Origin: Acidimicrobiia bacterium
Lineage (GTDB): Bacteria; Actinomycetota; Acidimicrobiia; Acidimicrobiales; Bin134
DNA length: 64,000 nt
Assembly: GCA_009843865.1 (NCBI GenBank)
Contig: VYCQ01000023.1
Span: forward strand, 157,660-221,659
Reading direction: 5' to 3'
Below, one piece after another: positions 24,909-27,724 of the stretch. Each line of letters opens with the position of its first letter. The stretch's first letter is position 1. The position numbers were made by a program, and so were the translations under genes. The notes below the pieces were generated by a model. That model saw only the letters and a list, made by a program, of their open reading frames with translations. It ran no database searches and was not told the DNA's origin.

Positions 24909-25670
24909 ATGCCAGTAAAACAGTTCCAACATGAACCAGAAGAGCAAACAAAAAGCTTCAAGCAGGCTCTGCTCAATAACCTAAATAATAACAACAGCTC
25001 AAGTATCGCGATCATTGCTGAGATCAAAAGACGTTCTCCTTCACGAGGTGACCTTAATGCCGAGCTGAATCCGGCTCACATAGCAGTTGCTTATCGCGAT
25101 GGCGGTGCTAGCTGTTTGTCGGTGCTTACCAACCAGACCATGTTTAGCGGTAGTATCGACGACCTCAAACAAGCAGCTCAAGCATCAGGACTACCTGTTT
25201 TGCGTAAGGACTTCATCACCACCACTCAAGATGTCTATGACTCTCAGCAAATGGGTGCGGCTGCTGTTTTGCTGATAGTGGCTGATCTTTTGCTGCCTAC
25301 ACATAAGGGACCGGATCTCGCTGAATTGCACCACCTCGCATTGACTCTAGGAATGGATGCGCTCGTTGAGGTGAAGTCTTCTCGTGAGCTTGAAGTTGCT
25401 CTAGCAGCAGGTGCTCAGATTATCGGTGTCAATCAGAGGGCCAAGCCCAAGAGCCAGACCTACACGATGGACTTTCAACGTGCCGAGCGGATGGCATCGC
25501 TGCTGCCAGACCATGTTGTGAAAGTAGCCGAATCTGGTATCGCAGTTACAGGAGGAACGAGCATTGCCACGATACGTCAAGCTGGTTATCACGCTGCGCT
25601 CATCGGTGAGGCTTTGGTGACCGCCGAAGACCCTGCAATGCGTCTTCGGGAACTGCTGGCGCAAGATTAA
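24909..25670 (+). CDS. trpC: Indole-3-glycerol phosphate synthase
   Basis: 253 residues of TIM-barrel type. Catalytic landmarks are Lys in AEIKRRSPSRG, Lys in VLRKDF, Glu in LVEVKS, and the phosphate-site pattern AESGI...GEALV. It converts CdRP to indole-3-glycerol phosphate in tryptophan synthesis. Two oddities: the N-terminal alpha-0 helix region before the first barrel strand is short and Gln/Asn-rich (NNLNNNNSSS), and the usual GVNNRDL loop reads GVNQRAKP. An in-frame TAG at 24891 excludes a longer upstream start. No other trp genes are in the window. Confidence 0.9.
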   Translation: MPVKQFQHEPEEQTKSFKQALLNNLNNNNSSSIAIIAEIKRRSPSRGDLNAELNPAHIAVAYRDGGASCLSVLTNQTMFSGSIDDLKQAAQASGLPVLRKDFITTTQDVYDSQQMGAAAVLLIVADLLLPTHKGPDLAELHHLALTLGMDALVEVKSSRELEVALAAGAQIIGVNQRAKPKSQTYTMDFQRAERMASLLPDHVVKVAESGIAVTGGTSIATIRQAGYHAALIGEALVTAEDPAMRLRELLAQD

Positions 25671-25781: not shown

Positions 25782-26666
25782 ATGAAGTTAACCAACAGCG
25801 TCGTTATCAGGTCTTTGGCACTGCTATTTGCCGTAGCTTTAGTTTGTATGGCTTGCAGCTCAGATAGCTCAACCGCGTCTCACACAGGGACACCTGTAAC
25901 TAGCACGCCCAATCAAGCTCCAAGCGATATTAGCAGCGATCCAGCAACAACTTCACCCACCTCTGAAACCATGCAAGCTCAGACCCCTGTTCCTACTACT
26001 AGGGTTGAGCAGCCAGTACCTTTCGATCAGAGTCAAACCCCAGAGCCAGTTTCTGATTCTGCTGAAACACCAACACCGCAATCCGGGCAAAACTCTGCGC
26101 AGAACCCCTCAGCAACTCAAGCCCCAGAACCGCAAACAGAACCCCAGACCACCCCACCAACCGAGCAACAAGCTACGCCTCAACCCACCCCTACCAGGCC
26201 ATTAGCTACACCATCGTCAAGCGCAACTCCCACATCAAAACCAACACCAATCCCCGAATCGGATCTGCCATCCATCAACGTTATCAACGTTACCAGCGGC
26301 GCAACTGTAAACCTCGCAAGCTTTGCGCCAGGCCAAAAGCCCATTGTGTTGTGGTTTTGGGCACCCCATTGATCTACTTGCCGCCGGGAAGCATCCGGCC
26401 TCGAGCAGTTGGCTCGACAGAACAGCGACAAGTTCACCCTCATCGGCTTGGGGGCACAAGACAGCCTCTCGCACGCTGAGAGTTTCGTAAGCTCCACTGG
26501 TACTACCTTTACCATGCTTTGGGACTCATCAGGAGCCTCCTGGCGAGAGCTAAGTGTTTTTGGTCAACCCAGTTTGATCGTCATGGATCGCTATGGTCGC
26601 GAAACCGACCGCCGTGGTGGTGTTTCACCAAGTTGGATTCTGCACGCGATTGAAAACATTAATTAA
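25782..26666 (+). CDS. TlpA/MPT53-like thioredoxin-fold lipoprotein, candidate selenoprotein (UxxC)
   Basis: One reading frame of 294 codons with a single internal TGA at 26370-26372 (residue 197). Residues 1-24 form a signal peptide with a possible lipobox before Cys25 (CMAC, an atypical match). Residues about 26-165 are a Thr/Pro/Gln/Ser-rich linker. Then comes a thioredoxin fold: PIVLWFWAPH-[TGA]-STC, REASGLEQLA, and the cis-Pro loop FGQPSLIVMD. The family motif is W-x-P-W-C-x-x-C, so the TGA sits exactly at the nucleophilic cysteine and the resolving Cys200 is kept. Downstream sequence stays in frame and fully family-like to the TAA. A SECIS-like stem-loop follows the TGA. Selenocysteine is the best reading; a nonsense mutation is the alternative. 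It would act as an extracytoplasmic thiol/selenol oxidoreductase. Confidence 0.8.
26377..26405 (+). promoter_or_regulatory. Candidate bacterial SECIS element
   Basis: Directly after the TGA at 26370 a stem forms: CTTG (26377-26380) with CGAG (26402-26405, one G-U), a 2x2 internal loop, then GCCGG (26383-26387) with CCGGC (26395-26399) closing a 7-base loop that starts with G at 26388. The spacing from TGA to loop (15 bases) and a G at the first loop position are close to the published bacterial SECIS consensus. Folding was done by eye. Confidence 0.6.
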
Positions 26667-26677
26667 ATAATCTCAGA

Positions 26678-27724
26678 TCAGACAAACGGCAACTTCGCCA
26701 CCTGAGCAGGCACCTCGGTGCCTCGCATGTTTAATGCCACAGCATCACCAACTTGTACATTGGGAGACATAAAAGCCAAAGCGATACCGGTTTCCAAAGT
26801 GGGTGAAAAATTGCCTGAGGTGACCTCGCCAATAACCTGCTTGTGGCGCATCACCTGTTGACCTTGTCTAGGTGGACGACGCCCTTCAACGATCAAACCC
26901 CTTAAGCGACGAGCAACACCACGGTCCTTCTCAGCGAAAAGTGCCTCACGTCCCTTAAACGTTGGTTTATTCCAACTCACCACCCAACCCAGCCCGGCCT
27001 GCAATGGGGTGATGGCTGGGCCTAACTCGTGTCCGTGTAAGGGAAACCCTGCCTCTAAACGTAAGGTGTCACGCGCTCCCAACCCCGCCGGAACAATGCC
27101 CGATGCAAGCAACGCATCCCAAAGCCGCGAAGCCGCCTCTTGCGGTACTGCAATCTCTACACCGTCTTCACCGGTGTAACCAGTACCTGCCACCATGAGT
27201 TCCACCTCCTCCCACCGAACAGTTGTCACGCAATTACGTTTAACCGCAGCAGCGCCGGGGCAAACCGAAGCCAACTGTTGCCTAGCTTGTGGTCCTTGCA
27301 CTGCAAGCAGGGCTCTAGTAGCAGTAACATCTATACCACCCACCACAGCACTCACCCGCTTGGTGTTAGATGCGTTAGGTATCACCTCAAAACTCTGTTC
27401 AGCCACCCACCAAACAATGATGTCATCCATCACAGAGCCATCGTCTTCTAGCAGATGTGTGTACTGGGTTTGACCGGGGCCAATCTTGCTCAGATCGTTC
27501 GTCAAGGTCTTTTGCAAACGAATAAATGCATCAGCGCCAACTACCTGAAGTGTCCCCAGATGACTTACGTCAAACACCACCGCAGTGGTGCGACAGGCCC
27601 TGTGTTCTGCCAAGGTTCCCGAAGGGTAGGACAAAGGCATCTCCCATCCCCCAAATGGCACCATCTTGGCGTAGAGCTTGCGATGGTCGCTGTCTAACAC
27701 AGACAAGCGCACCTCGGCCCCCAC
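26678..27724 (-). CDS. gcvT: Aminomethyltransferase, T-protein of the glycine cleavage system
   Basis: 348 residues. Typical opening KMVPFGGWEMPLSYPSGTLAEH, folate-site Asp/Glu region (FDVSHLGTLQVVG), and C-terminal half GLGARDTLRLEAGFPLHGHEL followed by GEVTSGNFSPTL. The protein takes the aminomethyl group from lipoylated GcvH, releases ammonia and gives 5,10-methylene-THF. Its first base coincides with the last base of the stop codon of the small upstream gene (27724..28077), indicating coupled translation. gcvP and gcvH are elsewhere in the window. Confidence 0.95.
   Translation of the reverse strand: MGAEVRLSVLDSDHRKLYAKMVPFGGWEMPLSYPSGTLAEHRACRTTAVVFDVSHLGTLQVVGADAFIRLQKTLTNDLSKIGPGQTQYTHLLEDDGSVMDDIIVWWVAEQSFEVIPNASNTKRVSAVVGGIDVTATRALLAVQGPQARQQLASVCPGAAAVKRNCVTTVRWEEVELMVAGTGYTGEDGVEIAVPQEAASRLWDALLASGIVPAGLGARDTLRLEAGFPLHGHELGPAITPLQAGLGWVVSWNKPTFKGREALFAEKDRGVARRLRGLIVEGRRPPRQGQQVMRHKQVIGEVTSGNFSPTLETGIALAFMSPNVQVGDAVALNMRGTEVPAQVAKLPFV

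Follow-up and report, generated by a model that had tools for sequence, protein, structure and literature searches.

An in-frame UGA predicted to encode selenocysteine at the active site of a TlpA/MPT53-like protein from an Acidimicrobiia bacterium

Predicted selenoproteins with a TlpA-like domain and a UxxC motif have been listed since 2005, when a "thiol-disulfide isomerase-like protein" was described from the Sargasso Sea (PMC1088965); a 2026 review gives this UxxC family as cd02966, and its table also holds a UGC-containing TlpA family (PMC13188914). Among proteins of known structure, the closest described relatives of the protein reported here are MPT53 and DsbF of Mycobacterium tuberculosis, both secreted disulfide oxidoreductases of the TlpA/DsbE type. 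On the RNA side, a question raised in the literature is whether the SECIS elements of bacteria form distinct classes missed by the current model (PMC9312934, PMC12013277), and, regarding the host lineage, SelA and SelB were reported to co-occur in most sponge-symbiont bins and to be missing in most close references (Slaby et al., 2017; PMC5649159). Among the listed titles and abstracts of open-access journal articles, none describing the TlpA UxxC family presented below was found. The gene lies in a window, meaning the whole stretch of 64,000 nucleotides that was analyzed, from a bacterium related to sponge symbionts with a genome of 1.79 Mb (98% complete).

The reading frame at 25782..26666 (+ strand) would encode a TlpA/MPT53-like protein of 294 residues if its UGA is read. 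Translation with TGA as U gave a single U, at residue 197 (26370-26372), and the next stop is the TAA at 26664, which bears out the sequence-only reading that one frame is broken by this TGA alone. As that reading had anticipated, gene calling splits the frame into two ORFs of 196 and 85 amino acids, and the same 85-residue C-terminal piece is present in the protein database (P0044). The hydrophobic N-terminus (25782..25856, +) ends in VCMAC, a lipobox-like motif that was read by eye as a putative lipoprotein signal in which Cys25 would be the acceptor; many relatives carry ..AAC or ..VAC at this place, and the protein is predicted to be an exported lipoprotein. It is followed by a Pro/Thr/Ser/Gln-rich linker of about 135 residues (25857..26261, +), the length of which differs among relatives, and by a TlpA-like thioredoxin-fold domain (26262..26663, +) assigned by Pfam, PDB matches, AlphaFold and Foldseek.

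Three Pfam models scored over their cut-offs on the read-through protein and spanned the TGA, namely AhpC-TSA (PF00578; 44 bits, cut-off 26), Redoxin (PF08534; 43.1 bits, cut-off 26.6) and Thioredoxin_8 (PF13905; 30.8 bits, cut-off 27), in agreement with the claim that the protein is family-like on both sides of the codon. No NCBIfam model reached its cut-off on the read-through protein, and for DsbE (TIGR00385), ResA, StoA and other named subfamilies of this collection the best score was 34.8 bits against a cut-off of 123.15. The AlphaFold model of the domain, with U entered as C, had a mean pLDDT of 96.6 and a pTM of 0.91. The proposed kinship with MPT53 held, as MPT53 (1lu4; E 6e-17) and DsbF (3ios; E 4.7e-20) gave the best sequence matches in the PDB and were also the first two by fold in Foldseek (TM 0.80 and 0.84, respectively). 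The active-site motif across the TGA is WFWAPH-U-STC, in which the TGA (26370..26372, +) occupies the first catalytic position of UxxC and is the predicted Sec codon. The second active-site Cys codon (26379..26381, +) is invariant in two alignments of relatives, and the cis-Pro loop noticed earlier is indeed present as GQPS, with a Pro codon (26568..26570, +) that faces the active site and a proline (P103) nearly invariant in the alignment.

Genomic context analysis placed a putative indole-3-glycerol phosphate synthase gene (trpC; 24909..25670, +) upstream, with a best NCBIfam score of 217.8 bits, below the cut-off of 260, and a convergent gcvT (26678..27724, -), over its cut-off, downstream. 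The trpC-side flank is common to the window and genome G016, and a gcvT-like gene was seen by eye at the same place in loci L021, L049, L051, L059, L061, and L064.

The domain was matched in all 22 genomes of the genus, with an in-frame TGA in 20 of them and two tandem TGA frames in 15; just one copy is present in each of G016, G020 and the window's genome, and G001 and G002 gave only partial, TGA-free matches. Among the listed genus matches with TGA, this codon was the sole stop of the matched stretch in 34 of 35, the exception being the second copy of G018, which carries a TAG besides the TGA; the decay with further stops that had been considered for close relatives was thus not found. The codon is TGA in every one of the 34 distinct frames matching WFWAPHx..C at genus loci L019-L048, within the motif WFWAPHU[PTS][TIV]C, and the motif of G016 is WAWAPHUSTC. 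Many of the named loci belong to the same genomes as the numbered ones and were not counted twice. Because the codon recurs in these 34 frames and in 20 of 22 assemblies, a read error at 26370-26372, another doubt raised by the sequence-only reading, is practically excluded. The named relatives are mostly Acidimicrobiia MAGs, including Sva0996 bin134 of Slaby et al., and the locus from bin134 (MPNQ; L061) carries two of these UGA genes. Downstream of the TGA, third codon positions took up most of the substitutions between the window and 28 genus rows (445, with 293 and 143 at the other two positions), and since the 29 rows had been picked as open frames, the absence of further stops among them is no evidence.

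In more distant relatives the position is occupied by TGA or by a Cys codon (TGC/TGT), with Cys in L067 (twice), L069, L073, L074, L075, L078, and L080. These Sec/Cys pairs lie at exactly the position that had been assigned to the first Cys of CxxC. A tree built from 84 Sec and 13 Cys rows (97 in all), with the variable residue omitted, requires at least five Sec/Cys state changes, two of them forced by starred branches. Ten relatives contribute their first tandem copy to the group that holds the window and G016 (99*). The Cys form L069:6109 (TGT) is nested within Sec forms in this tree and its hairpin is gone, and it is likely that a Sec-to-Cys replacement took place at L069. Regarding the tandem copies, the first copy shows SQH at the cis-Pro loop in L020, L023-L027, L030-L032, L034, L035, and L037, while the window has GQP and second copies have GQP or SQP; with the cis-Pro loop so replaced and Sec retained, the first copy may have an altered function.

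Two hairpins follow the codon. The apical one (26401..26417, +; stem 26401-26406/26412-26417, loop 26407-26411 AGTTG) has a 6-bp stem and an AGTTN loop, spans TGA+31 to +47 and starts 28 nt past the UGA; the other, UGA-proximal (26383..26399, +; stem 26383-26388/26394-26399), has a G-U inner pair, folds in the window and is partly conserved. The sequence-only reading had placed a SECIS-like stem-loop directly after the TGA, and this was right in that hairpins do follow, but the well-supported one starts further on and the nearer one is less conserved. Pairing was counted on DNA after the TGA stacked gap-free for 64 of the 76 distinct TGA rows, 12 near-duplicates of the window's own genus being omitted. 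The apical stem was paired in 96.9% of 384 cells (12 unpaired), and 18 doubly changed cells were observed as compared to a shuffle mean of 3.4, with none of 500 shuffles as high, in a control that leaves relatedness in. Pairing fell to 16-45% when the stem was slid, and in 12 Cys genes it was 34.7% of 72 cells, like shuffles. RNAalifold, unaided, recovered exactly these six pairs and no others. Compensated versions of the stem include TTGAGC/GCTCAA, TTCAGC/GCTGAA, TTGTGC/GCACAA, TTGCGC/GCGCAA, and TTGCAC/GTGCAA. Over all 76 TGA rows the stem was paired in 443 of 456 cells, and four rows missed by the motif filter (L108, L109, L117, and L119) each kept the hairpin, L109 as TTGCAC/GTGCAA.

The proximal hairpin was rejected as the main SECIS because just 63.8% of its cells pair over the 64 TGA genes. 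The apical hairpin is a stem-loop 3' of the UGA with a G in a small apical loop, which corresponds to the bacterial SECIS criterion as worded in PMC1088965; no Rfam family reached its gathering score after the UGA. The stretch of the apical hairpin encodes [VL]EQ[FL]AR in most TGA forms, so the RNA likely constrains the protein, and this motif is absent from the 12 Cys forms. A search for further copies of the TlpA-gene SECIS in the window's genome hit this gene alone (E 8.6e-15, the next match being at E 2.86), and this search is not a full selenoprotein inventory, given that the selD hairpin is absent from its matches.

The selenocysteine machinery whose presence the sequence-only reading had made a point to check was found complete. 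The genome has a tRNA-Sec gene that passes the tRNA-Sec model (68.9 bits) and for which ARAGORN gave the anticodon tca, adjacent selA and selB genes that both score above their cut-offs, a winged-helix domain of the SelB type being present in SelB, and a selD with an in-frame TGA in GAGUAGK. Across the genus, selD was present in all 22 genomes, with one in-frame TGA in each listed copy reaching the codon, and tRNA-Sec was found at E<=1e-10 in 17 of 22, with 120 candidates scored per genome; at this threshold it was not found in G005, G007, G013, G014, and G019, two of which are 95% complete. The UGA TlpA gene would represent a concrete target for the selenocysteine machinery of the lineage. 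Other genes were observed as well. A search of the window's genome for formate dehydrogenase, a common selenoprotein, gave no match over cut-off, and two sub-cut-off, stop-free matches in one 863-residue frame were not accepted as FdhA. Near selA-selB, L017:9869-11422 (-) encodes a 518-residue protein whose residues 1-183 match the start of the selenium-dependent xanthine dehydrogenase model TIGR03311 (144 bits, cut-off 830), the remainder being unnamed by Pfam, and at L165:2815-3630 (-) a formate/nitrite channel gene (PF01226) adjoins the Sec-type selD even though the genome yielded no formate dehydrogenase above cut-off.

Co-occurrence with selB was analyzed across 248 genomes sampled from the order, for which up to 16 candidates were scored per genome and the domain was matched at E<=1e-15 in 100. 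Among the 94 listed of these matching genomes (the other six were left unclassed), 79 had the TGA form and 15 had TGA-free matches alone. While selB was over cut-off in 135 of the 248 genomes, it was so in 75 of 79 TGA-form genomes versus 1 of 15 TGA-free ones (Fisher 2.5e-12, relatedness not removed). In the four TGA-form genomes lacking selB over cut-off, none was listed for G187 and G118, and weaker matches were listed for G194 and G144; the TGA-free genome with selB is G145. The codon was Cys in 11 of the 15 TGA-free genomes and was not read in G023, G026, G064, and G145, and since several of the 15 represent a more distant, WASWC-like TlpA, the contrast is not one of orthologues alone. 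In the same sample selD was found in 150 of 248 genomes, many copies being without TGA, so that SelD switches between Sec and non-Sec forms across the order.

The state of the database reflects the split gene calls. A protein database search returned 152 matches, and of the 120 listed, 33 break off exactly at WFWAPH, just ahead of the UGA, 48 are C-terminal pieces starting past it, 38 carry Cys and are full length (some of which could be U, as U records are shown as C) and one (P0021) has Trp. Pieces of this kind include P0003, a 96-residue C-terminal piece from Candidatus Poriferisocius named "TlpA family protein disulfide reductase", and P0112, a 102-residue N-terminal piece named "hypothetical protein". 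As many relatives are listed as UGA-broken halves, many such genomes are likely misannotated at this locus, and correctly annotated copies may exist because U is indistinguishable from C in the protein search. In P0021 the sequence reads APHWPAC and then GVEQFARQN, with Trp at the Sec/Cys place, perhaps a UGA translated as Trp by the gene caller. The residue before Sec had been described as His where relatives have Trp, which is correct when compared to MPT53/DsbF and a few others, but 28 of the 38 listed full-length Cys relatives have His before Cys (Trp 5, Asn 2, Ser 1, Phe 1, Tyr 1). His is therefore not tied to Sec, and the view of it as a further change at the active site is not supported.

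Taken together, the sequence comparisons indicate that 25782-26666 is one TlpA/MPT53-like gene and that the UGA at 26370 is very likely read as Sec, directed by the predicted hairpin at 26401-26417, because the codon and its matching hairpin recur in relatives and the machinery is encoded. The domain continues past the UGA, other relatives have Cys there, and tRNA-Sec, SelA, SelB, and SelD are all encoded, so the UxxC selenoprotein proposed by the sequence-only reading is supported by the conserved codon, the Sec/Cys pairs, the compensated hairpin and the machinery. SelB with Sec-tRNA would bind the 26401-26417 hairpin and insert Sec at the UGA.

Three other explanations were weighed against this one. 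A decaying or truncated pseudogene, in which the TGA would simply terminate translation, would agree with gene callers stopping there to give two pieces and with the extra TAG in the matched stretch of the second G018 copy, but the stop stands at the identical place in 34 distinct genus frames with a conserved domain downstream, no other stop occurs in 34 of 35 listed genus TGA matches, and the third-position bias of substitutions, the TGA/Cys pairs and the covarying hairpin speak against decay, which makes it very improbable. Still more remote, to the point of being negligible, is a genome-wide reassignment in which UGA is decoded as another amino acid: some bacterial lineages do reassign UGA, but the 31 window ORFs of at least 250 aa end in TGA (10), TAG (12) or TAA (9), so that TGA is still a normal stop here, the tRNA with the tca anticodon passes the tRNA-Sec model alongside a full Sec machinery, and relatives have either TGA or a Cys codon at this site. 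The UGA could also act as a regulated switch, by which scarce selenium or SelB would yield a 196-residue Pro-rich lipoprotein without the redox domain, and Sec insertion the full-length protein. Sec insertion competes with translation termination, and the truncated product would retain both signal and linker; the linker is, however, highly variable in length and sequence, and we regard a switch as improbable, if less so than the pseudogene. Insertion of Sec at the UGA remains the preferred explanation.

The selD genes of the order offered a second view of the hairpin layout. In 38 Sec selD genes from the genus and the order sample, a proximal hairpin at +12 to +28 after the UGA was 90.8% paired and an apical hairpin at +31 to +45 was paired in 190 of 190 cells, with an invariant GU at 37-38, while in five Cys selD genes the apical stem was paired in 13 of 25 cells. 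Thus selD and the TlpA gene have the same layout, a proximal hairpin and then a hairpin with GU in its loop, this GU lying at 39-40 in TlpA genes and at 37-38 in the selD of the order (37-40 nt from the UGA overall). Phylum-wide, 30 selD loci gave 13 readable UGA frames (17 were unread by the motif), of which 10 have the far hairpin and three (L244, L247, and L262) lack it. On this count a spacing confined to the order was rejected, and the far-hairpin spacing is wider than the order and not universal.

Tentatively, and with slightly less than even confidence, we suggest that much of the order and part of the phylum have a SECIS class of their own, with a co-adapted SelB and a hairpin that dictates the TlpA motif [VL]EQ[FL]AR. 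Such a class would consist of one hairpin acting as spacer and, after it, a recognition hairpin with its GU loop 37-40 nt from the UGA, a layout that would be common to two unrelated genes, selD and TlpA, in much of the order and part of the phylum. The [VL]EQ[FL]AR motif would then be the shadow of the hairpin in the protein, drifting with compensatory changes and lost once the codon becomes Cys. That the class is distinct and is read by a co-adapted SelB is what we infer from these patterns, and the pair of selD and TlpA hairpins bears on whether bacterial SECIS elements fall into distinct classes.

Regarding function, kinship with MPT53, DsbF, ResA, and CcmG suggests that the protein may be an extracytoplasmic thiol-disulfide (or peroxide) reductase working through its UxxC pair; both the reductase function and the extracytoplasmic location are proposed from this kinship. 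The protein would be exported and lipid-anchored as a lipoprotein on a long Pro-rich tether, and its UxxC pair could be re-reduced through a CcdA-type membrane conduit. CcdA-type motifs were found near 3 of 11 Cys loci (L067, L073, and L074) and 2 of 65 Sec loci (L097 and L098), with unequal flanks, and a CcdA-type gene is also near the Cys-form locus L080. The window's genome has a CcdA-type gene of its own, with DsbD_TM over cut-off; its neighbor is a Cys-type TlpA elsewhere in the genome, not the UGA gene. The gene neighborhoods suggest that CcdA may be the electron source of the UGA TlpA protein.

In comparison with known systems, the gene is placed with the already known TlpA-like UxxC selenoproteins, the SECIS layout being its newest aspect. 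The Sargasso Sea family is alike in its TlpA-like domain, UxxC motif and predicted selenoprotein status, and, compared by its description alone, may or may not be the same as this TlpA family. The UGC-containing TlpA, or ResA-like WAxxUGC protein (NF041054), shares a TlpA-like domain with Sec and differs in having UGC rather than UxxC; its model was unmatched at E<=10. The Rcas_1661 thioredoxin-like (seleno)lipoprotein (NF041057) is similar by name, and its model scored 6.5 bits on this protein against a cut-off of 190. In MPT53 and DsbF the active-site place and the cis-Pro are as here, whereas they have Cys for the UGA, Trp instead of His before the first Cys, and solved chains without the Pro-rich tether. 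As for the RNA, the SECIS of Escherichia coli fdhF (GCAGGTCTGC) resembles the element found here (GCAGTTGGC) in being a hairpin with a loop GU after GCAG, but its GU lies at nucleotides 23-24 from the U of the UGA as compared to 39-40 here and 37-38 in selD, and in the present gene a second hairpin stands between the UGA and the GU hairpin.
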